Source: Deltaproteobacteria bacterium (GTDB lineage Bacteria; Desulfobacterota_C; Deferrisomatia; Deferrisomatales; JACRMM01). From it: DNA of 12,787 nucleotides. The notes under the pieces are model-generated. The model saw only the letters and a program-made list of their open reading frames with translations, had not been told where the DNA came from and searched no databases. Positions within the stretch are counted from its first letter, which is position 1; each line of letters opens with the position of its first letter. Both the position numbers and the translations under genes were made by a program. This document shows positions 1,705 to 12,787 of this stretch, piece by piece. The stretch lies in NCBI GenBank assembly GCA_016218905.1, contig JACRCS010000704.1, positions 1 to 12,787 of the forward strand. The letters are read 5' to 3'.

Positions 1705-4700
1705 ATGAACGCGTTCATCCTCTCGCATCTGCTCATCGGCGTCACCACACTGGGCCTCGGGGTTCTCGTGTTCTCCAAGAACTCTCGAGGATCTCTCAAT
1801 CGGCTGTGGCTGTTCTTCAGCCTGACCGTCAGCTTTTGGGCGCTGGGGGCGACCGCCATCGGTCTGACGCGGGATGCGGATCAGGCGCTTCGGCTCTGGA
1901 AGATCGTGCACGTCGGCGTGATCCTCATCGCGCCGGCGTTCGTTCACTTCGCGTACGAGTTCGTGGACGTACGAGAAAGGCCCTACCTTGGGCCGATGTA
2001 TCTCTGCTCCGCCGGTCTGATCGGGCTCTCCCTTTTTACGGACGACTTCATACGCCAGACCACGATCATGTACGGAGGGATTCACTACGACGCACCTCCG
2101 ACCCCGCTTTATCTCGTCTTCATGGTCGGTTGGTCCGCAGCCATCATCTACGCTCACTGGATCATCTTCTCGCGATACCGAACTGCCACCCCTTCCAAAA
2201 GGGCACAGATTCAGTACTTCACCGTCGCCACGGTTCTCGGGTTCTGCGCCGACTCGACCAGCTTCTTGCCCGTCTTTGGAGTCGAGAGCTGGCCGCAAGT
2301 CAGTTTCCTTGCTCCGCTGTTTCCGATCATCATGACATACGCCATGGTCAGGCATCGGCTCATGGACATAGAGCTGGTGATCAAGAAGACGTTCATCTAC
2401 TCGCTGCTTCTCCTTCTGCTGATCGCACCCTGCTACGCGGTCCTGATTCAAGCGGAGAAGATCGCAGAGCCGTACGTTCGCTACCCGGTCCTGGGCTGTC
2501 TCTTCGTCCTGGTCGCCTTCGTCTTCCCTCGGATCCGAATCCGAACCGAACGCAGCCTCGAGAACATCCTGTTCAACCGCGGAATGGATTACCGGCAGAT
2601 TCTCGCGGGCTTCTCGAAGGAGATCACGAGCCATGCCGACCTCACCGGCGTGCTCGCGGCGACGACGGACACGATTCGGCGCGCGACGGACGCGCACCGA
2701 GCCGATGTCTACCTCCTCGAGGACGGCCGGTACCAGCTGGCTCGGGATCCCTCCTCTGGAGCGGCCCCGGGCCATCTGGTCGCCCTGCTCGAGCAGTCCG
2801 CCGACTGCCTCTTGAGGAAGGCTCTCTCCAGCTCGAAGGATCCGATAGCAGGGCTCGCCCAGCAGGAGATGAAGGAGCTCTCGGTGACTCTGGCGGTTCC
2901 GCTCCTGTTCGAGAGGAGCTTGAAGGGCTTCATCCTGCTCTCGGACAAGGACAGCGCCGGCGACTACTCCTCGGAAGAGATCTCCTTCCTCCGCACCGTC
3001 GCCAGTCAGTTGGCAATGGCGGTGGAAAACATCAGGAAACACGAAGAGGTAGACAAGCTCAAGGAGCTCGACACTCTCAAGAACGCGCTCTTCTCGAAGG
3101 TCAGTCACGAGCTGAGGACCCCTCTGACGAACATCCTCCTGCCTCTGCAACGCGTGCTCTTCGAGCAGGGCGACCGACTGCACCCGGAGAACCGTCAGGA
3201 AAAAGAGGCGATGCTGAGCAACGGCCTCAAGTTGCTCAAACGGATCAACGAGATCCTGGACCTCTCGAAGCTGGAATCGGGGAAGATGAAGTTGTCGACT
3301 GCCCCGGCCGACCTGCGGGCGGTCCTAGACGAAGTGGTCTCCGCAGCCTCCCCTGCCGCAGCCGCGGTCCACATCGAGCTCAGCTTCGCCTCTCTCACGG
3401 CTCCGCCGCCGGTCTACGTGAACGTCGAGCAGATGGAGAAGGTCTTCGCAAACCTCGTCGGGAATGCCTTGAAGTTCACCGAGGCAGGCGGACGAGTGAA
3501 CGTCGAAATCGCGGAGGAGCAGGAAGGGGTGGTGGTGACCGTGTCCGATACCGGCCGCGGGATTCCCGAGGCCGACCTTCCCTTCATCTTCGACAGGTTT
3601 CGGCAGGTAGACGGCGCGACGTCGCGCATGTACGAGGGCACGGGATTGGGACTGGCGCTGGTCAAGGAGCTCGTGGAGCTGCACCGCGGGCGCATCGACG
3701 TCGAAAGCGAGCTCGGGAAGGGAAGCAGCTTTCGCGTCTGGCTGCGAAAGGGGCGGGAGCATCTGACGAGCGAGGAAGTGACAGAAGGCGCCGAAGAGGC
3801 GCCCGCCTTGGATATCGCCGAGCGCCGCCGAGGCGACCGTCGCAGAGGCGACCGCCGCCAGGGCGAGCGCCGCCAGGCCGACCGCGAAGACCGTCAGATG
3901 CTGGAACTGCTCGACGTTCAGTTCGCCGACCTCCGCCCCGCGACTCTCTTGGAGGCCGAGGAGAGCGCCCTTCCCGGAGGCGAAGGGGGTGACGGGAGAC
4001 GGGTCCTCGTGGTCGAGGACAACCGCGACCTCGCGCGCAACATCGCGAAAGCCCTGCGCCATCGGTTTTCCGTCTCGATCGCCTACGACGGCGAAGAGGC
4101 GCTCGGCCTGCTCCTGCAGGATTGGCCCGACGTGGTCGTCTCCGACGTCATGATGCCCCGGATGGACGGCTTCGAGCTTTGCAGCCGGATCAGGGCCGAG
4201 GAGAGAGGGAAGCGCACGCCGGTGGTCCTGCTGACGGCCAAGTCCGAGGTTCAAGACCGCATCGCGGGTTTCCGCCAGGGTGCCGATCACTACCTGGCCA
4301 AACCCTTCAACGCGAGCGAGCTGCTGGTGGTCATCGATTCCCTCCTCTCCAAATACGACCTCCAGCGCGAGCTCGAGTACGCCAACACGGAGCTCCAGAA
4401 GGCCCTCCAGGAACTGGCCGAGACGCAAGTCCAGCTCGTCCACTCGGCCCGGCTGGAGTCGGTGGGCGAGCTCGCAGCCGGGGTCGCGCACGAGGTGAAG
4501 AACAGCATCTACTGCGTGCGCACCGGGCTCAGCGGAATCGAGAAGCGCATCAAGAAGATCCACGAGGGGACCCTCTCCCTCGAGTCGTCCTATCCGGAGA
4601 TCGTGCAGGCGCTCGGAGTGAATGCCCAGGCGCTCGACCGCTCGCTCTTCGTCGTCAACTCGCTGCTCGACTTCTCGAGAGCAAATCGAAGCCGCATGGC

Positions 4701-5163
4701 GCCAGGCGATCTCGGCAAGGGCATCGCCGATACGGTCGCCATCCTGGAACCCAGGATCCGAGACAAGCTCGAGCTTCGAACGAGCTGCGGCGTCACGGCT
4801 CCCGTCGAATGCAAGATCGAGGAGATCAACCAGATCGTCATGAACCTGGTCCTGAACGCGCACGAGGCGATCCCGGAGCGCGGCAACGTCTCCATCCGGA
4901 CCGAGCAAGCCGACGGCTTCGTCGAGATCCGAGTCAGCGACGACGGACCGGGCATCCCCGAGGAGCACGTCGAGAAGATCTTCCTGCCGTTCTTCACCAC
5001 CAAGGAGAAGAGCGGCAACAGCGGGCTTGGGCTCAGCATCGTGCACAACATCGTCAAGGCGCACCACGGTACCGTCCGCGTCGAGAGCGAGGTCGGCCGC
5101 GGCACCTGCTTCACGATCCGGCTCCCCAACAAGCAGCCGTCCTCCGATGGCGTCGCGCCCTGA
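1705..5163 (+). CDS. Membrane hybrid histidine kinase: 7TM-GAF-HK1-REC-HK2
   Basis: A 1152-residue inner-membrane sensor kinase. Residues ~5-275 contain about seven hydrophobic helices of the HisKA_7TM type and two more after the MVRHRLMDIELV link. A GAF-like domain spans ~300-445. Kinase 1 has the H-box SHELRTP with phospho-acceptor His468, N-box Asn587, DTGRG at 615-619 and GTGLGL at 645-650. An Arg-rich repeat linker (708-727) leads to a receiver with Asp772, phospho-acceptor Asp814, Thr844 and Lys866. A coiled coil follows, then kinase 2 with His929 (AHEVKNS), Asn1051, DDGPG at 1079-1083 and SGLGLS at 1106-1111. All catalytic residues look intact. Two complete kinase cores around a receiver in one chain, with no Hpt domain, is uncommon. 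The ATG has a purine-rich AAAGGGG unusually close (one base away). The next gene starts 147 bases downstream. Signal and partner are unknown; the neighbouring receiver proteins are the likely partners. Confidence 0.92.
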   Translation: MNAFILSHLLIGVTTLGLGVLVFSKNSRGSLNRLWLFFSLTVSFWALGATAIGLTRDADQALRLWKIVHVGVILIAPAFVHFAYEFVDVRERPYLGPMYLCSAGLIGLSLFTDDFIRQTTIMYGGIHYDAPPTPLYLVFMVGWSAAIIYAHWIIFSRYRTATPSKRAQIQYFTVATVLGFCADSTSFLPVFGVESWPQVSFLAPLFPIIMTYAMVRHRLMDIELVIKKTFIYSLLLLLLIAPCYAVLIQAEKIAEPYVRYPVLGCLFVLVAFVFPRIRIRTERSLENILFNRGMDYRQILAGFSKEITSHADLTGVLAATTDTIRRATDAHRADVYLLEDGRYQLARDPSSGAAPGHLVALLEQSADCLLRKALSSSKDPIAGLAQQEMKELSVTLAVPLLFERSLKGFILLSDKDSAGDYSSEEISFLRTVASQLAMAVENIRKHEEVDKLKELDTLKNALFSKVSHELRTPLTNILLPLQRVLFEQGDRLHPENRQEKEAMLSNGLKLLKRINEILDLSKLESGKMKLSTAPADLRAVLDEVVSAASPAAAAVHIELSFASLTAPPPVYVNVEQMEKVFANLVGNALKFTEAGGRVNVEIAEEQEGVVVTVSDTGRGIPEADLPFIFDRFRQVDGATSRMYEGTGLGLALVKELVELHRGRIDVESELGKGSSFRVWLRKGREHLTSEEVTEGAEEAPALDIAERRRGDRRRGDRRQGERRQADREDRQMLELLDVQFADLRPATLLEAEESALPGGEGGDGRRVLVVEDNRDLARNIAKALRHRFSVSIAYDGEEALGLLLQDWPDVVVSDVMMPRMDGFELCSRIRAEERGKRTPVVLLTAKSEVQDRIAGFRQGADHYLAKPFNASELLVVIDSLLSKYDLQRELEYANTELQKALQELAETQVQLVHSARLESVGELAAGVAHEVKNSIYCVRTGLSGIEKRIKKIHEGTLSLESSYPEIVQALGVNAQALDRSLFVVNSLLDFSRANRSRMAPGDLGKGIADTVAILEPRIRDKLELRTSCGVTAPVECKIEEINQIVMNLVLNAHEAIPERGNVSIRTEQADGFVEIRVSDDGPGIPEEHVEKIFLPFFTTKEKSGNSGLGLSIVHNIVKAHHGTVRVESEVGRGTCFTIRLPNKQPSSDGVAP
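3826..3885 (+). repeat. Four 15-bp tandem repeats coding an Arg-rich linker
   Basis: Four consecutive five-residue units of the form R-[RQ]-[GA]-[DE]-R occupy residues 708-727 of the hybrid kinase, between kinase 1 and the receiver. The DNA units are similar but not identical (CGCCGAGGCGACCGT and variants). The sequence is a highly charged flexible or coiled linker that could vary in copy number between strains. Confidence 0.75.
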
Positions 5164-5310
5164 ATCCGGGCTCGCGGCTAAAGACCCTCTTATTCTTGAC
5201 CGATTCGTAATGTCGCCTGCGCAGGTCCGTCTTCGGGGGAACCCCGCACTCAGGGTTGAGACGACCCGCTCCCTAAGCATAGAGCAGCGTCTTCCGCGGA
5301 GCAGCCCCCG

Positions 5311-6435
5311 ATGCCTGAGGTCGAAACCACAGGGTACAAGGTCTTGGTCGTCGACGATGAGCCGGCGAACCTCGAGAACTTCACGTTCAATTTCGGGCTC
5401 GACTATCCCATCGTCACCGCGACCGGGGCCGCAGCGGCCTGGGAAGTTCTGGACCGGGAGAACGTCTCGGTCATCGTCTGCGACCAGCGAATGCCGGGAG
5501 TCTCCGGGATCGAGCTGCTGACGCAGGTCAAACAGAAGTACCCCAAAGTCGTCCGGATTCTCCTCACCGCCTACGCCGACCTCCCCACCGTCATCGCCGC
5601 GATCAACGAGGGCAACGTCTACCGCTTCGTGAGCAAGGATTCTCCTCTCGACCAGATCGAAGCGGTCCTTCGGCAAGCCATCGAGTACTTCGACATGAAG
5701 AGGGAACTCGAGGCGGCGAATCGGGCGCTCGTACAGTCCGAGAAGCTCGTGACCATCGCCGAGATGGCGGCCGGGATCGGGCACGAGATCAAGAACTCCC
5801 TCTCCGGGATGCTGATGGGTATCCACCGGATGGACGAAGAGCTCAGGGACCGCGGGCTGCCGGATCCCGTGATCCTCCGGCTCCTGGAAAAGACGAAGTC
5901 CTATGCGACCCGGACGGGCCAGATCGTGGAACGACTCAACGACTTCTCGAAGCCCGGAGCCGAAGAGGACGTGGATCTCGGCAAGGTCGTGCAGGACTCT
6001 ATCGAGCTGGCCCGCGACGGACTCGGCGTCCGGCTGAACGGAATGCAGATCGTGGCGGAGCTCGACCCCGGAATTCCGTTGATCAAGGGCAATTACGTGA
6101 ATTTCGAGCAGGTCTTCATCAATCTGATCCGGAATGCCTGTCAGGCGATGGAGGAGACGGGCGGCACGATCCTAATTCGAGGGTCTTGGGACGGGGACAG
6201 CATACGGATCGCGGTCCACGACACGGGGCTCGGCATTCCCCCGGAGAACCTTCAGAAGGTCTTCGGCGCTTTCTACACGACGAAGAAGGAAGGAATGGGC
6301 ATGGGCCTGTATATTATCGACAACATCATCAAGACCTTCGGGGGAAGGCTTGAGCTTCAAAGCGAAGTGCGCCGAGGCAGTACGTTCACGGTCGTGTTGC
6401 CCTCTCAACGAACGAAACAGGAGGCCGTCCGGTGA
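5311..6435 (+). CDS. Receiver-histidine kinase (REC-HisKA-HATPase), soluble
   Basis: A 374-residue cytoplasmic protein without membrane segments. Residues ~9-125 are a receiver with Asp15/Asp16, phospho-acceptor Asp58 (CDQRMPG), Thr86 and Lys109. The usual Pro after the Lys is Asp, as in some response-regulator subgroups. A short coil (RELEAANRAL) leads to a kinase core with His158 in GHEIKNS, Asn275 in the N-box, DTGLG at 304-308 and GMGMGL at 328-333. It can therefore accept phosphate and also autophosphorylate, as an intermediate kinase in a relay or a kinase gated by its receiver. The REC-coil-kinase order, the RELExAN coil and the HE[VI]KNS H-box match the second half of the upstream hybrid kinase, suggesting common descent. 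GGAG at 5298-5301 lies 9 bases before the ATG. The stop overlaps the next start. Confidence 0.9.
   Translation: MPEVETTGYKVLVVDDEPANLENFTFNFGLDYPIVTATGAAAAWEVLDRENVSVIVCDQRMPGVSGIELLTQVKQKYPKVVRILLTAYADLPTVIAAINEGNVYRFVSKDSPLDQIEAVLRQAIEYFDMKRELEAANRALVQSEKLVTIAEMAAGIGHEIKNSLSGMLMGIHRMDEELRDRGLPDPVILRLLEKTKSYATRTGQIVERLNDFSKPGAEEDVDLGKVVQDSIELARDGLGVRLNGMQIVAELDPGIPLIKGNYVNFEQVFINLIRNACQAMEETGGTILIRGSWDGDSIRIAVHDTGLGIPPENLQKVFGAFYTTKKEGMGMGLYIIDNIIKTFGGRLELQSEVRRGSTFTVVLPSQRTKQEAVR
6419..6424 (+). promoter_or_regulatory. Strong ribosome binding site fixing a GTG start
   Basis: AGGAGG lies seven bases before the GTG at 6432, inside the end of the upstream kinase gene. It supports the GTG start and the GTGA stop/start overlap, so translation of the two genes is likely coupled. 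Confidence 0.85.
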
Positions 6436-7931
6436 TCAAGATCCTCGTCGTCGACGACGAAGACTTCCTTCTGGAGTCGATGTGCGACTTCTTCCAGCGC
6501 CGCGGCTATGAGACCTACGGGGCCTCCACCGGGGAAGAGGCCCTGGCGATCGTCAAACGCAAGCGCCCGCACATCGTCCTGCTCGACCTCATGCTCGCGC
6601 CCGGCGGCCTGAACGGCTTCAGCGTCCTGAAGTACATCCGGGAGGCGGACCGGACGGTCAAGGTCATCATGATCACCGGCATGGCCATGGACGCCGAGTC
6701 GGCGAGGCGGGCGGCGGAGCTGGGGGTCAGCGACTACCTCCACAAGCCCGTCGACTTCGAGAAGCTGGAGAAGGAGGCGATCCCCAAGATCGGAGCCCAG
6801 CTCTTCGAGGATTTTCGCCGCGAAGCGGACGAGTGCAGGCGCCTCTACGAGGAGCTGAAGGGAGACGTCATCCGGACTATAACGGCCTTGGCGAAGGCGC
6901 TCGATGCCCGCGACCGTTATACTTACGGCCATTCGGAACGGGTGGCCGAGTACGCCGAAGCCATCGCCCGGGAGATGGGACTCCCGGAACAGGAGATCTC
7001 GGACATCCGAATCGGAGGACTGCTCCACGATCTGGGCAAGATCGCGATGTCCGACGAGGTTTTGCGAAAGCCGGGCCGCCTGACGGAAGAGGAGTACGAG
7101 GAGGTCAAGAGGCACGCGACGGACGGAGCGCGGATCCTGAGCACCATACCGCGGCTCGGCCGCGTAGTGGACATGGTCCTGCACCACCACGAGCGCTACG
7201 ACGGCCAGGGTTACCCCCACGGCCTCAATCGGGCAGCGATCCCACAAGGCGCCCAGGTGATCGCGTTGGCCGATACCTTGGACAACGTCGCGTCCTGCAT
7301 TCTTGCCGTCTCCGACTCCTTCGACGCGATGACCTCCCCCCGGCCGTACCGCGCTGCGCGTACGCCGCGAGAAGCGGTCCAGGAGATCCTGCGCTGCAGG
7401 GGCACGCAGTTCGATCCGGTGGTGGTTGACGCCTTCACCAAATGCTGGGAAAAGAACGGCGACGACATGATCACGCGGAGAGATCCGGTCGATTACCGGC
7501 AGTTTCCCGTCCTGCTGGTCGCGAAGGACGAGGAGGTCCTGCAGGAGGTAGCGGGCGCCATGGGGCAGGACCTCGACCTGGTCCTGGCTTCGAGCCCGGA
7601 CGAGGTGGAGGACGCGCTGGAGGACCGTCCCGACATCCATCTCGTGGTCCTCCTGCAGGAGATGCACCAATCGGCGTACCAACGGCTCGTCTCTGCCTCG
7701 GCGAAGAGACACGGGCTGAAGACCAGGATCGCCGTCTACCCCGAGGAGAACGGCTTCCACGGTCAACAGGCGTCCGAAAAGTTCCAGGGGTTCCGCTACC
7801 TGCTCTCCCCTGGACACCCCGAGTCACTGAAGATGCAGATCATGGCAACCCTGGAAGCGGACATCCACCGGCAGGGGACTCCGGCGGCGCGCCGCGACTC
7901 GGCTTCGCAACTTCTGGAGGAGGGCTCATGA
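6432..7931 (+). CDS. Response regulator with HD-GYP domain and degenerate C-terminal receiver
   Basis: A 499-residue protein. The N-terminal receiver (~1-120) has the acidic cluster VDDED, phospho-acceptor Asp52, Thr82 and Lys105. The loop after Asp52 is two residues longer than usual (LMLAPGGLNG). The HD-GYP domain (~145-345) should hydrolyse c-di-GMP. His167, His199-Asp200 with Lys203, His228, His252-His253 and the DGQGYP signature (257-262) are all present. A 14-residue insertion puts two copies of the ALAD/AVSD motif in tandem at 275-302, where family members have one. Residues ~356-485 look like a second receiver that cannot be phosphorylated: the acidic pair reads Lys365-Asp366, the acceptor position is Gln409 and the Lys position is Ser459. 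The first receiver is probably the target of the upstream kinases. The gene is overlapped at both ends, by the kinase before it and the outer-membrane channel after it. Confidence 0.92.
   Translation: MIKILVVDDEDFLLESMCDFFQRRGYETYGASTGEEALAIVKRKRPHIVLLDLMLAPGGLNGFSVLKYIREADRTVKVIMITGMAMDAESARRAAELGVSDYLHKPVDFEKLEKEAIPKIGAQLFEDFRREADECRRLYEELKGDVIRTITALAKALDARDRYTYGHSERVAEYAEAIAREMGLPEQEISDIRIGGLLHDLGKIAMSDEVLRKPGRLTEEEYEEVKRHATDGARILSTIPRLGRVVDMVLHHHERYDGQGYPHGLNRAAIPQGAQVIALADTLDNVASCILAVSDSFDAMTSPRPYRAARTPREAVQEILRCRGTQFDPVVVDAFTKCWEKNGDDMITRRDPVDYRQFPVLLVAKDEEVLQEVAGAMGQDLDLVLASSPDEVEDALEDRPDIHLVVLLQEMHQSAYQRLVSASAKRHGLKTRIAVYPEENGFHGQQASEKFQGFRYLLSPGHPESLKMQIMATLEADIHRQGTPAARRDSASQLLEEGS
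7254..7337 (+). repeat. Possible 42-bp diverged tandem duplication in the HD-GYP core
   Basis: Residues 275-288 and 289-302 align without gaps as two versions of the conserved [IV][IL]A[VL]xDxxDxxxS segment of HD-GYP domains. Ala, both Asp and the final Ser are identical, and most other positions are conservative. Hand comparison gives about half of the 42 bases identical, so any duplication is old. The motif Asp is a metal ligand in characterised HD-GYP enzymes, so two candidate ligands exist. Confidence 0.55.
7916..7924 (+). promoter_or_regulatory. Ribosome binding site fixing the FadL-like start
   Basis: GGAGGAGGG lies just upstream of the ATG at 7928, within the last codons of the HD-GYP gene. 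It selects this ATG, which is followed directly by a signal peptide, over in-frame codons further upstream. The junction is ATGA, a 4-bp overlap. Confidence 0.85.
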
Positions 7932-9259
7932 AGAGGGTTTTCTCGGCGGCAGCGGCGGTCGCGTGTATGCTCGGGTTCGCTGCCCAGGCGCTATCGGGGG
8001 GATTCGCGTTGGAAGAGCAGAGCGTGAGCGGGCTCGGCAACGCCTACGCCGGCGGCGCAGCCGTGGTCGAGGACGCTTCCACGATCTTCTTCAACCCGGC
8101 AGGGCTCACACGCCTGAAGGGGCAGAACGCCGCCGCGGGTGTGCACCTGATCGTGCCGCACGCGCGGTTCGAGAAGGATCTGGCTCTCGACGCAGCCGGC
8201 GCCCCCCTCACCGGGGGAGAAGGCGGGGACGCGGCCGAGAGCCGCCTCGTCCCCAATGCCTACTACGGCGTGACCCTCGGAAGCGGGCTCGCCCTGGGCC
8301 TGGGCGTCTCCGTCCCCTTCGGGCTCTCGACCGAATACCCGAAGGACTGGGTGGGGCGCTATCAGGCCGTCCGGTCGGAGGTTGCGGTGCTCAACCTGAA
8401 CTCCAGCGCCGCGTACCGGCTGACGAAGCGCTGGAGCGTCGGGGCCGGTTTCAATGCGCAGCGGCTCGAGGCGGAGATGACGAACCGGGTGGACTTCGGG
8501 GCGATCCTGGCGCCGACGCTCGGTACCCTCCCCCAATCGGCGGACGGAACGTCCAAGCTCACCGGCACGAACTGGAGCTACGGCTGGAATGTGGGCGCGC
8601 TCTACGAGCTCGGCGACGACACGCGAATCGGACTTGCATACCGCTCCCGCGTGAAACACGACATCGAAGGCGAGGCCGAATTCGACCTGCCCCCCGGCCT
8701 GCCCGCGCCCGCCGCCGACGCCCTGGCGGCGCAGGGCTTTCGTAACGACGATGCGAAGGTGTCGATCACGCTGCCCGACTCCGCGTCCCTCAGCCTCTTC
8801 CATCGCTTGAACCGCCACTGGGCGGCGATGGTCGATCTCACCTGGACCAACTGGAGCACCTTCGACGAGCTTCGAGTCCGGTTCAAAAGCGGTCTGCCCG
8901 ACGACGTCACCGAGGAGCAGTGGGAGGACACTTGGCGCTTGGCCCTCGGACTCACCTATACCCCCTCCTCCGTCTGGACCTGGAGGGCCGGAGTCGCCTA
9001 CGACCAGGATCCCATCCCCGACGCCCGCCACCGGACGCCCAGGATCCCGTCCGCCGACCGGATCTGGACGGCCTTCGGGCTCGGCTATCGGCCCGCGCCC
9101 TGGCTCGGCTTCGATCTCGGCTACGCCCACCTCTTCGTGGCGGACGCGAAGATCGACCGGCAGGTCGCCACCGAGCAGGACGCGCTCAAGGGGGCGCTGC
9201 GTGGGAGCTACGAGCTGTCGGCCGACATCGTCAGCGCCCAGCTCACGGCGAGCTTCTGA
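7928..9259 (+). CDS. FadL/OmpP1/TodX-family outer-membrane transport protein
   Basis: A 443-residue precursor. It begins MKRVF followed by an Ala-rich hydrophobic stretch and a likely cleavage near AQA (19-21), giving a mature N-terminus close to SGGFALEEQS. The family landmarks follow in order: SGLGNAYAGGAA, then the diagnostic FFNPAGLTRL, then a PFGLSTEYPKDWVGRY segment and NLNSSAAYRL. The rest alternates as barrel strands and ends in LTASF, with the C-terminal Phe typical of outer-membrane barrels. Family members are passive channels for hydrophobic molecules such as long-chain fatty acids or aromatic hydrocarbons; the substrate here is not known. The ATG overlaps the stop of the HD-GYP regulator, so the channel is made from the same message as a signalling protein. 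Fatty-acid uptake would fit the acyl-CoA synthetase remnant at the left edge, but that link is speculative. Confidence 0.92.
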   Translation: MKRVFSAAAAVACMLGFAAQALSGGFALEEQSVSGLGNAYAGGAAVVEDASTIFFNPAGLTRLKGQNAAAGVHLIVPHARFEKDLALDAAGAPLTGGEGGDAAESRLVPNAYYGVTLGSGLALGLGVSVPFGLSTEYPKDWVGRYQAVRSEVAVLNLNSSAAYRLTKRWSVGAGFNAQRLEAEMTNRVDFGAILAPTLGTLPQSADGTSKLTGTNWSYGWNVGALYELGDDTRIGLAYRSRVKHDIEGEAEFDLPPGLPAPAADALAAQGFRNDDAKVSITLPDSASLSLFHRLNRHWAAMVDLTWTNWSTFDELRVRFKSGLPDDVTEEQWEDTWRLALGLTYTPSSVWTWRAGVAYDQDPIPDARHRTPRIPSADRIWTAFGLGYRPAPWLGFDLGYAHLFVADAKIDRQVATEQDALKGALRGSYELSADIVSAQLTASF

Positions 9260-9415
9260 TCCCGCAGCCCGTGCCGACGGTGGTCCGGATCGCCCGGATT
9301 GGTGGGCCCGCACGAGGGGACGCTGACAGGTTTGGAAGGTGACCCCAAGAATGTACCTCTTGGCGAGACGGAACCCGCCAAACCGGCTCGCGTCCCCGAA
9401 CCGCGTCCTGAGGCC

Positions 9416-9451
9416 TTGGGACAAGTAAGCTCATTGGGACAGGAGTTACTT
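9416..9451. repeat. Hairpin with TTGGGACA direct repeats
   Basis: TTGGGACA occurs at 9416-9423 and again at 9434-9441. Around the second copy, AAGTAA at 9423-9428 pairs with TTACTT at 9446-9451, and CTC/GAG extends the stem past a bulged G. It lies just upstream of the MITE-like repeat and may be another dispersed repeat fragment. Confidence 0.4.
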
Positions 9452-9491
9452 CAGGTCCTTCCGGAATCTCATTGGCCCGGACCGAAAGGAC

Positions 9492-9598
9492 TGTCTCTCG
9501 CAGAGGCGCAGAGAACGCAGAGAAGACCAAGAGCCGTGATTTGGTTTTTCTCTGTGCCCTCTGTGCCTCTAGGGAGCAAAGCGAACGGGCGAGAGACA
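9492..9598. mobile_element. MITE-like palindromic repeat (no transposase)
   Basis: The ends are perfect 10-bp inverted repeats: TGTCTCTCGC at 9492-9501 and its complement at 9589-9598. Inside, a long stem joins 9502-9530 and 9541-9570 (about 24 of 30 aligned positions by hand, several mismatches being G-U compatible) around a 10-base loop. An 18-base unpaired stretch (9571-9588) lies on the right side. The GCAGAGGCGCAGAG-type core is familiar from dispersed repeats in several phyla, where it gives spurious translations like RRGAENAEK and LCALCAS. There is no transposase and no obvious target-site duplication, so a non-autonomous MITE/REP-like element is the best description. Confidence 0.7.
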
Positions 9599-9647
9599 CG
9601 GCCTTTCCCTTCGTGCCTGAGCCATGCCGCCGGGACCGCTACCCACA

Positions 9648-9676
9648 CAAAAGACTGAAGCTCCTTACTTCAGCCT
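9648..9676 (-). terminator. Terminator of the small secreted-protein gene
   Basis: On the minus strand AGGCTGAAG pairs with CTTCAGTCT (nine pairs including one G-U) around a seven-base loop that contains the TAA stop codon. A short T-run follows (TTTTGTG). It reads as an intrinsic terminator only on the minus strand. Confidence 0.6.
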
Positions 9677-10078
9677 ACCTTGGCCCGATTGACTTTCCAA
9701 AGTTGTGGTGGGAGCACAATCGGCCCAGGTGAATTCCTGGCCGCCGTAGCCGTCCTCGTAGTACCAAGCGGCGTAAGGGTACTTTCCTTTAAGCTTGTAG
9801 GTCAGAACGCAGTTGTCCGAAACGCCTAGAGGGTTCGAGGCAGTCAGCTCCAGGATAATCCCGTCCTGCTGTACGAAGCTACCGGTGATGGGCCACTCCA
9901 CCGCGCCGCAGCCAGCCCCGATTGTAGTTCCGTAGACATAGGTCTGTGTTCTGTCGACGGTAAAATTGTATTGATTCCCGTATTGGTCTTGAAGACATAG
10001 TGTTTGGGCCCGACCCGCGACGACCGCGACAGTCAGGGTCAACGCCAAAGCAAAACCGAGCGACTTCACGAGTCTCAT
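9665..10078 (-). CDS. Small secreted four-cysteine protein, unknown function
   Basis: A 137-residue precursor on the minus strand. The ATG at 10078 is chosen over an upstream in-frame ATG because AGGAGG sits five bases before it and MRLVK begins a clear signal peptide: a hydrophobic run at 7-21 with likely cleavage after GRA (24). The mature part, about 113 residues, is rich in Tyr, Thr, Gly and Gln and has four cysteines (28, 57, 90, 121) that could form two disulfides. Alternating stretches such as QYNFTVD, GIILELTA and CVLTYKLKG suggest a small beta-sheet domain, perhaps lipocalin- or immunoglobulin-like in shape. I do not recognise a family. The base composition looks visibly less GC-rich than the flanking genes and stop choice is TAA, which may mean transfer. 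It has its own terminator and a 278-base gap upstream, so it is probably transcribed alone. Confidence 0.75.
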   Translation of the reverse strand: MRLVKSLGFALALTLTVAVVAGRAQTLCLQDQYGNQYNFTVDRTQTYVYGTTIGAGCGAVEWPITGSFVQQDGIILELTASNPLGVSDNCVLTYKLKGKYPYAAWYYEDGYGGQEFTWADCAPTTTLESQSGQGRLK

Positions 10079-11798: not shown

Positions 11799-12787
11799 AT
11801 GGGCCGAGATCGAGACCAAGGCAAAGGGCTCACCCGGCGGAAGGCGCTCCAGCAGCTCGCGGCAGTCGCGGGAGGGCTGGCCCTCCGCTCGGAGGCAGCC
11901 GAGCTCCCGCCCGAGGTCTTCGACCCGTTGCGCCGGGCCGGACGCTCCCTCTCCGACTACGGTCGTCGGTCGCGCTTCGAATTCGCCCGGCGGGCCGTGA
12001 GCGGGATTCGCGGGAGCGACGTGAACGGTAGCTCGCTCACCCCGCTGGCGGACCTCCACGGCATCCTCACCCCCTCCTCCCTCCACTTCGAGCGCCACCA
12101 CGCGGGCGTCCCCGAGCTCGACCCCGCGAGCTACCGCCTCCTGGTGCACGGCCGGGTGAAGCGTCCTCTCCTCTTCACCCTCGCGGAGCTGGAGCGCTTT
12201 CCGTCGGTCTCGGCGATCCACTTCATCGAGTGCTCGGGCAACGGCTCCCAGGGCTACCGGGGGACGGACCCGCGGCTCACGGCCCAGGCGGTGGACGGGC
12301 TGGTGAGCACGAGCGAGTGGACCGGCGTCCTGCTCTCGACGCTGTTGTGGGAAGCCGGCGTGGAGCCCTCGGCGCGCTGGGTCGTGGCGGAGGGGTTCGA
12401 CGCCGCCGCCATGACCCGGAGCATCCCCATGGAGAAGGCGGTGGCGGACGTCCTCGTCGCGTACGGGCAAAACGGAGAGGCGCTACGGCCGGAGCAGGGC
12501 TACCCCGTGCGCCTCGTCGTCCCCGGGTGGGAGGGCAACATCAACGTGAAATGGCTCCGCCGGCTGGAGGTGACCGAAGGCCCGGCCATGAGCCGGGAGG
12601 AGACCTCCAAGTACACGGATCCCCTCCCCGACGGGAGAGCCCGCATCTTCACCTGGGTGATGGACGCGAAGTCGATCATCACCCACCCCTCCGGCGGCAT
12701 GACTATAAAGCAAACTGGGTTTGTGGAGATTCTGGGGCTGGCCTGGTCGGGGCTGGGGAGGGTGGCCAGGGTAGAGGTGAGCACCGA
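11799..12787 (+). CDS. soxC: SoxC-like sulfite dehydrogenase, molybdopterin subunit (partial)
   Basis: The frame is open to the right edge (329 complete codons, no stop). A purine-rich GAGGAGAG lies immediately before the ATG. The N-terminus has a twin-arginine signal, LTRRKALQ at 11-18, followed by an Ala/Gly hydrophobic run, so the folded protein is exported by Tat. The sulfite-oxidase fold follows: LHGILTPSSLHFERHHAG at 86-103, then FIECSGNG with Cys145 as the molybdenum ligand. Further on, WLRRLEVTEGP and SKYTDPLPDG lead into the dimerisation domain with FTWVMDAKSIITHPSGG and GLAWSGLGR. This order matches SoxC, which with a cytochrome SoxD oxidises sulfite or sulfane sulfur in the periplasm. 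No SoxD is visible, but it would lie beyond the window. Other sulfite-oxidase-family enzymes are possible. The last ~90 bases use noticeably different codons (ACT, ATA, CAA). Confidence 0.9.
   Translation, partial: MGRDRDQGKGLTRRKALQQLAAVAGGLALRSEAAELPPEVFDPLRRAGRSLSDYGRRSRFEFARRAVSGIRGSDVNGSSLTPLADLHGILTPSSLHFERHHAGVPELDPASYRLLVHGRVKRPLLFTLAELERFPSVSAIHFIECSGNGSQGYRGTDPRLTAQAVDGLVSTSEWTGVLLSTLLWEAGVEPSARWVVAEGFDAAAMTRSIPMEKAVADVLVAYGQNGEALRPEQGYPVRLVVPGWEGNINVKWLRRLEVTEGPAMSREETSKYTDPLPDGRARIFTWVMDAKSIITHPSGGMTIKQTGFVEILGLAWSGLGRVARVEVST
12750..12772 (+). other. Potential G-quadruplex motif inside the soxC-like gene
   Basis: Four G-runs of three or four bases are separated by loops of two, one and six bases (GGGG, CT, GGGG, A, GGG, TGGCCA, GGG) on the coding strand. 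It fits the standard G3+N1-7 rule. It lies in the codons for the conserved SGLGRVAR segment, so it may simply reflect codon choice. Confidence 0.4.

Follow-up and report, generated by a model that had tools for sequence, protein, structure and literature searches.

We analyzed a 12,787-bp stretch of DNA (the window; contig JACRCS010000704.1 of a deltaproteobacterium placed in the Deferrisomatales) and found that three genes of one strand, encoding a soluble receiver-kinase (REC-kinase, gene 3), a receiver-HD-GYP protein (gene 4) and a FadL-type outer-membrane channel (gene 5), lie head to tail with overlapping ends in the list of open reading frames (ORFs). Judged by sequence, the arrangement is best described as a variant of familiar signaling modules, in which one translationally coupled message encodes a PhcR-like kinase, an RpfG-like enzyme that carries a pseudo-receiver, and FadL. 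It suggests that the entry of lipid may be linked to a lifestyle signal, although FadL seems to have joined the operon recently. The relevant features are as follows.

1705-5163, plus strand: membrane double hybrid kinase, 1152 amino acids (aa), from Pfam, motif positions and hydrophobic windows
5164-5310, plus strand: gap of 147 bp between the double kinase and the REC-kinase, from motif, hairpin and Rfam scans
5311-6435, plus strand: soluble REC-HisKA-HATPase kinase, 374 aa (gene 3), from Pfam; D58 in DQRMP, H158, N275
6419-6424, plus strand: ribosome-binding site AGGAGG for the HD-GYP gene, within the REC-kinase gene, from sequence
6432-7931, plus strand: REC-HD-GYP-pseudoREC protein, 499 aa (gene 4), from Pfam and an AlphaFold model (mean pLDDT confidence 71.7)
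7254-7295, plus strand: 14-residue insert in the HD-GYP domain, at about residues 275-288, seen as a gap against 4mcw and 5z7c
7500-7871, plus strand: degenerate receiver at the C-terminus (pseudo-REC), with L408 at the phospho-Asp position, from hhalign and the AlphaFold model
7916-7924, plus strand: ribosome-binding site GGAGGAGGG for the FadL gene, within the HD-GYP gene, from sequence
7928-9259, plus strand: FadL-type outer-membrane channel, 443 aa (gene 5), from Pfam; ATGA overlap with gene 4

The TGA stop of the REC-kinase gene (6433-6435) overlaps the GTG start of the HD-GYP gene at 6432 in a four-base GTGA junction, and the TGA stop of the HD-GYP gene (7929-7931) overlaps the ATG start of FadL at 7928 in an ATGA junction. 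A sequence-only reading of this DNA had described this succession, with strong ribosome-binding sites and a large membrane hybrid kinase ahead of it, and both points are borne out by the ORFs and their starts, the kinase being a seven-transmembrane (7TM)-GAF double kinase 147 bp upstream. Four-base stop/start overlaps are frequent within bacterial operons, so the translational coupling is in itself ordinary. All four genes are similar in GC content (0.60-0.69) and in GC content at third codon positions (0.82-0.88). Scans of the 147-bp gap found no sigma-70-like match, no terminator-like hairpin and no Rfam RNA (a riboswitch was sought), and the gap is predicted to fold no more stably than shuffled sequence (z 0.78); these scans are compatible with a separate promoter inside the gap.

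Domains and motifs support the earlier description of one overlapping operon with intact kinase, receiver and HD-GYP residues and a true FadL-type channel. Relatives were listed as the best 120 each of 6467, 2923 (FadL) and 1236 proteins, each cluster being represented by its longest contig. Pfam finds REC (E 1.3e-19), HisKA (1.9e-6) and HATPase (2.1e-24) domains in gene 3, and an alignment of 26 of the 46 members of its subfamily keeps the receiver D58 in all 25 sequences with a letter there and H158 and N275 in 26 of 26. This subfamily is sharply bounded among the best 120 relatives, row 46 scoring 283 bits and row 47 dropping to 208; one relative, P0296 (32% identity), carries the source name PhcR. 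The double kinase runs in the order 7TM (HisKA_7TM), GAF, HisKA/HATPase (H468), REC (D814), second kinase module (HEVKN, H929) and HATPase. In it Pfam reports HisKA_7TM, GAF, HisKA, HATPase (two stretches) and REC and no Hpt domain, the second kinase module standing in its place. Nearly the whole of gene 3 can be aligned with the REC and second kinase half of this protein (29% identity, E 3e-41), so that gene 3 seems to be a soluble relative of this part. An Arg-rich linker (RRRGDRRQGERRQ), encoded by four 15-bp-spaced repeats (window 3819-3884), connects the first kinase module to the REC. No window kinase reaches a curated NCBIfam cut-off among the best 25 matches.

Gene 4 is a putative c-di-GMP (cyclic di-GMP) phosphodiesterase in which the residues of a working HD-GYP enzyme are present, and its best profile match is 5z7c, a 3'3'-cGAMP (cyclic GMP-AMP) enzyme. 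Pfam matches REC (E 2.2e-23) and HD_5 (4e-41), and alignment to 5z7c and to PDB 4mcw, which we take to be PmGH, places the HD residues and the HHExxDGxGYP motif. Across an alignment of 22 of the 120 listed relatives, H199, D200, K203, H228, H252, E254, D257, G258, G260, Y261 and D295 are kept in all 22 and H253 and P262 in 21 each. Gene 4 thus keeps the HD and GYP motifs of 4mcw but differs from it by the 14-residue insert before the last Asp and by the C-terminal pseudo-receiver. The insert precedes the putative metal ligand Asp295 and resembles a tandem copy of the Asp-bearing IxAVxDxFDxxxS helix. Between Y261 and D295 there are 31-34 residues in 20 of the 22 rows, 27 in one and 19 in the canonical P0050; compared with P0050, the other rows are thus longer by 12-15 residues (by 8 in one row) between the GYP motif and Asp295. 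Only 7 of the 22 rows retain the Asp of the first helix copy (D281), compared with all 22 for Asp295, so the second-copy Asp is probably the metal ligand.

The C-terminal domain had already been labeled a pseudo-receiver, and rightly so. In hhalign comparisons its 133 residues scored 97.2% (E 4e-11) against a profile of gene-3-type receivers and 56.5% against gene 4's own N-terminal REC, with an HD-GYP slice (0.1%) and a kinase slice (0.9%) as controls, and all 21 aligned sequences with a letter at the phospho-Asp position carry F, L or V. By these profiles the pseudo-REC is nearer to the gene 3 type of receiver than to the N-terminal REC of its own protein. The AlphaFold model gives it an alternating strand/helix order, with weak confidence near the C-terminal end. 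Pfam finds no family in this piece of the window protein, and a second receiver stretch in three of six relatives (P0003, P0013 and P0015) at a very loose limit only. The matches listed by a structure search with the full model are mainly to the N-terminal REC and to HD-GYP, and they have no bearing on the pseudo-REC.

Pfam family PF03349 (Toluene_X/FadL) covers residues 17-443 of gene 5 (E 2.5e-113, 379 bits, cut-off 29.7); the score against the FadL equivalog NCBIfam NF007988 is 241.6 bits, below its cut-off of 585. The closest solved structures are long-chain fatty-acid FadL entries (E. coli-type) and 3dwo, at E values of about 1e-50, compared with 6e-9 for TodX, 1e-12 for CymD and 8e-8 for TbuX. 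By sequence, gene 5 is a FadL-type channel and not a TodX-type one, a TodX-like identity being set aside for its far greater closeness to the fatty-acid FadL structures. The same distances bear on whether the window could hold a hydrocarbon-sensing cluster like TodS/TodX, pairing a double kinase with a TodX-type channel for aromatic compounds. In TodS, as in the double kinase, two kinase modules flank a REC, and the Pfam family of the barrel includes TodX. We nevertheless consider such a cluster very improbable, given the E values of the barrel and given that none of the eight main ORFs of the window encodes an aromatic-degradation enzyme or a DNA-binding regulator like TodT.

To place the channel among its relatives, we sampled 396 genomes (198 from the phylum of G004 and 198 from that of G002) at a threshold of E <=1e-80 and obtained 19 FadL loci, 12 from the former phylum and 7 from the latter. 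In 14 of the 19, an acyl-CoA synthetase gene comes directly after FadL on its strand, so the cargo of the window FadL, as judged from these relatives, is likely a fatty acid. The recurrent two-gene unit (L103-L105, L107-L114, L122, L123 and L125) holds synthetases of which 13 of 14 are 58-76% identical to that of L111; in L105 and L107 the synthetase match is split over two frames. With E. coli FadL and with these pairs the window gene shares the channel family and the fatty-acid-type closeness. In a tree of 59 proteins (the window FadL, 39 of the other 119 listed matches and the 19 loci), it groups with P0122, P0123 and P0124, next to P0156 from a Deferrisomatales metagenome-assembled genome (97/96 support), and none of the 19 sampled loci falls inside its group. 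At the start of the window, a plus-strand edge frame at 1-285 looks like the last part of an AMP-binding acyl-CoA synthetase's main domain and stops soon after, without the C-terminal domain; it is 33% identical to the L111 synthetase over 82 aa (E 1e-8) and has no Pfam match at 0.01.

Based on these components, we propose that the system began as a recurrent two-gene phosphorelay (soluble REC-kinase plus REC-HD-GYP-pseudoREC), headed here by the 7TM-GAF double kinase, and that in this lineage a fatty-acid-type FadL was added as its third cistron, coupled in translation to the second. The signal, a long-chain fatty acid or a compound like it, would enter the outer membrane via FadL, and the 7TM/GAF kinase would sense that compound or the membrane state caused by it. 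The receivers of the double kinase and of the REC-kinase would then relay phosphate to D52 in the HD-GYP protein, breakdown of c-di-GMP would follow, and the cell would quit the sessile state when lipid is available. Individual steps have precedents: FadL channels release hydrophobic molecules laterally into the outer membrane (excerpts of PMC7728783), and in rhizobia FadL aids uptake and sensing of long-chain N-acyl homoserine lactones (AHLs; excerpts of PMC5977203 and PMC9938287). RpfC/RpfG link a fatty-acid signal to an HD-GYP protein, phosphorylated RpfG lowers c-di-GMP, and uptake of RpfF-dependent free fatty acids "may involve FadL" (excerpts of PMC4504480). That the entering lipid is the cue for the kinases, and that the HD-GYP protein responds by lowering c-di-GMP, is the reading we tentatively favor, as something just short of an even call. 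In this reading, coupling would set the ratio of switch to channel, and the pseudo-receiver, being like the REC-kinase's receiver, is a guessed docking site for that kinase. We think it unlikely that the circuit is hard-wired further, with FadL made in a fixed ratio with the HD-GYP protein it informs, the pseudo-REC tethering that protein to the REC-kinase and lipid entry setting c-di-GMP turnover directly.

We next asked how far the genes travel together, placing relatives on the same contig by equal contig size and matching source across the three protein searches rather than from contig DNA. Relatives of the trio share one 5,966-bp contig of a single source by this size and source match (P0242, 79% identity; P0002, 73%; and the FadL P0123, 67%). 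The REC-kinase/HD-GYP pair is common to five more contigs (11,159, 26,501, 4,769, 24,475 and 71,079 bp), with sources overlapping in each pair; the proteins concerned are P0005/P0245, P0006/P0252, P0007/P0244, P0009/P0248 and P0015/P0261. As a control on size matching, HD-GYP rows 1-17 and REC-kinase rows 1-46 share seven sizes, window included, compared with one (2023) between HD-GYP rows 18-120 and all 120 listed REC-kinase rows and none between HD-GYP rows 1-17 and REC-kinase rows 47-120. Among listed rows, HD-GYP and FadL sizes match twice (the window and 5966) and REC-kinase and FadL sizes three times; one of the three, at 2963, joins rows whose sources differ and is probably a coincidence. 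As the pair occurs on five contigs without a listed FadL and the trio on one, these matches suggest, within the 120 rows listed per search (more distant partners could lie beyond them), that the kinase/HD-GYP pair is most likely older and that FadL is a lineage-specific third cistron added later in the window's lineage. The earlier expectation that the four genes stay together therefore holds in part, for the trio on one contig at 67-79% identity, and gives way on the five contigs that carry the pair with no listed FadL.

Several of these observations count against a lipid cue. By inference, the 5,966-bp match gives a shared contig only, not gene order or strand. None of the 120 listed of 2923 FadL relatives falls on the five other contigs with the pair, which implies that the regulators of those contigs probably function without FadL. 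P0122, the closest FadL relative among those listed (70%, 9,572-bp contig), has no listed kinase or HD-GYP protein of equal contig size. Finally, unlike most sampled relatives, the window FadL follows an HD-GYP gene and has no acyl-CoA synthetase downstream.

The five contigs also favor a simpler explanation, in which FadL landed behind the regulators by hitch-hiking, borrows their promoter and coupling and imports fatty acids for growth without contributing to the signal, while the pair senses something unrelated. At E 1e-5, FadL was found in none of 90 HD-GYP-centered loci (their own HD-GYP was recovered in 88), a control that is weak because most of these loci belong to Clostridia and other groups, by title, in which FadL is not expected; likewise, no HD-GYP was found at E 1e-5 in the 19 fetched FadL stretches. 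The genes upstream of FadL, scanned in 10 of the 19 loci, are mixed (EF-P, UvrA-like, major facilitator superfamily, NAD synthase, transposase and others), with no signaling kinase among the 10. Set against hitch-hiking, a relative retains the trio although its proteins have diverged to 67-79% identity, enough time for a neutral order to decay, and the ATGA overlap with a ribosome-binding site inside the HD-GYP gene fixes co-translation. A kinase also lies within about 7 kb in 4 of the 19 FadL loci (L104, L106, L111 and L112). L111, from the phylum of G004, offers a second case of a sensor kinase next to FadL: its one-strand cluster of hybrid kinase, FadL and acyl-CoA synthetase (2909-10045) resembles the window in that the kinase gene immediately precedes FadL, but that kinase is PAS-type (1385 aa, REC + Hpt), the stretch has no HD-GYP and the acyl-CoA synthetase is kept. 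We regard hitch-hiking as a serious possibility, if a somewhat improbable one.

In outline, the module resembles RpfCG or PhcSR, although membership in either fails on the synthase, Hpt, PhcB and PhcQ among the eight scanned ORFs. RpfC/RpfG, the diffusible signal factor (DSF) system of Xanthomonas, likewise sets a membrane hybrid kinase beside a REC-HD-GYP regulator and has a fatty-acid-type signal. The window differs in its 7TM-GAF double kinase (RpfC is 5TM), extra REC-kinase and FadL in the operon, and in the insert and pseudo-REC of its HD-GYP protein. With PhcS/PhcR/PhcQ of Ralstonia, whose signal is a long-chain ester (excerpts of PMC8578825), it shares a PhcR-like soluble receiver-kinase beside a membrane kinase, a likeness that rests on domain architecture and on the source-named relative P0296 and not on direct alignment with PhcR. 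Here the output neighbor is an HD-GYP protein rather than PhcQ/PhcA, and the eight scanned ORFs include no PhcB methyltransferase and no PhcQ single receiver.

These likenesses raise the question of Rpf/DSF- or Phc-type quorum sensing, with FadL admitting a self-made fatty-acid autoinducer, the 7TM kinase as receptor and the REC-kinase as a PhcR-like relay. Gene 3 has the PhcR type of architecture, a soluble receiver plus kinase (excerpts of PMC8578825), in keeping with the name of P0296; gene 4 has the RpfG core (REC-HD-GYP), and FadL aids perception of long-chain AHLs in rhizobia (excerpts of PMC5977203). Yet the window's eight main ORFs include neither an enoyl-CoA-hydratase-like RpfF nor a PhcB-like methyltransferase, Pfam reports no Hpt in the hybrid kinase, and the kinases' best 25 NCBIfam matches are all under cut-off. 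Quorum sensing of this type seems to us a distinctly poor prospect.

To our knowledge, it is poorly settled how hydrophobic signals get past the outer membrane and reach membrane kinases. A FadL joined to a kinase/HD-GYP switch in an operon would make the outer-membrane signal-entry step directly testable. In its excerpted text, a DSF review goes no further than to suggest FadL as a route for related fatty acids (PMC4504480). The HD-GYP clade with an insert by the metal ligand and a dead receiver is a variant of a common enzyme, and we found no study of such a clade in the open-licence literature. In the same literature, by title or start of abstract, no operon of REC-kinase, HD-GYP and FadL was described.

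Wider genome searches scored only the best few candidates per genome, such that an empty answer is no proof of absence. On this basis the REC-kinase was not found in 295 genomes of the phylum of G004 (titled Nitrospirae; it includes G007, titled Nitrospira), in 251 and 301 genomes (searches from G001 and G003, overlapping samples of the same phylum) or in 235 genomes (G005, titled Myxococcota), and the HD-GYP protein was not found in 198 genomes of the phylum of G002. An HD-GYP profile matched in 8 of 201 genomes, in frames of 337-386 residues whose matches end by profile position 345 of 484. In a contig scan with the HD-GYP protein, generic HD-GYP genes dominate: the best 80 loci all end by query residue 377, none covers the pseudo-REC, and generic matches occur in 10 of 10 genomes behind ten of those loci. 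Viral contigs gave two distant kinases. Among plasmids, 1272 records carry a generic HD-GYP match and none covers 80%.

Elsewhere in the window, a B12-binding radical S-adenosylmethionine (SAM) protein that falls into no named family is encoded at 242-1546 on the plus strand, upstream of the double kinase on its strand; its best NCBIfam match scores 95 bits, far under the cut-offs. Beyond FadL, a non-coding stretch at 9490-9600 holds CAGAGGCGCAGAG-type sequence and a near complement, and presumably resembles a dispersed intergenic repeat. At the far end, on the plus strand, 11799-12787 encodes a SoxC-type molybdopterin sulfite dehydrogenase (428.8 bits, cut-off 420) that is truncated by the window end and adjoins an M48-TPR protease gene on the opposite strand.

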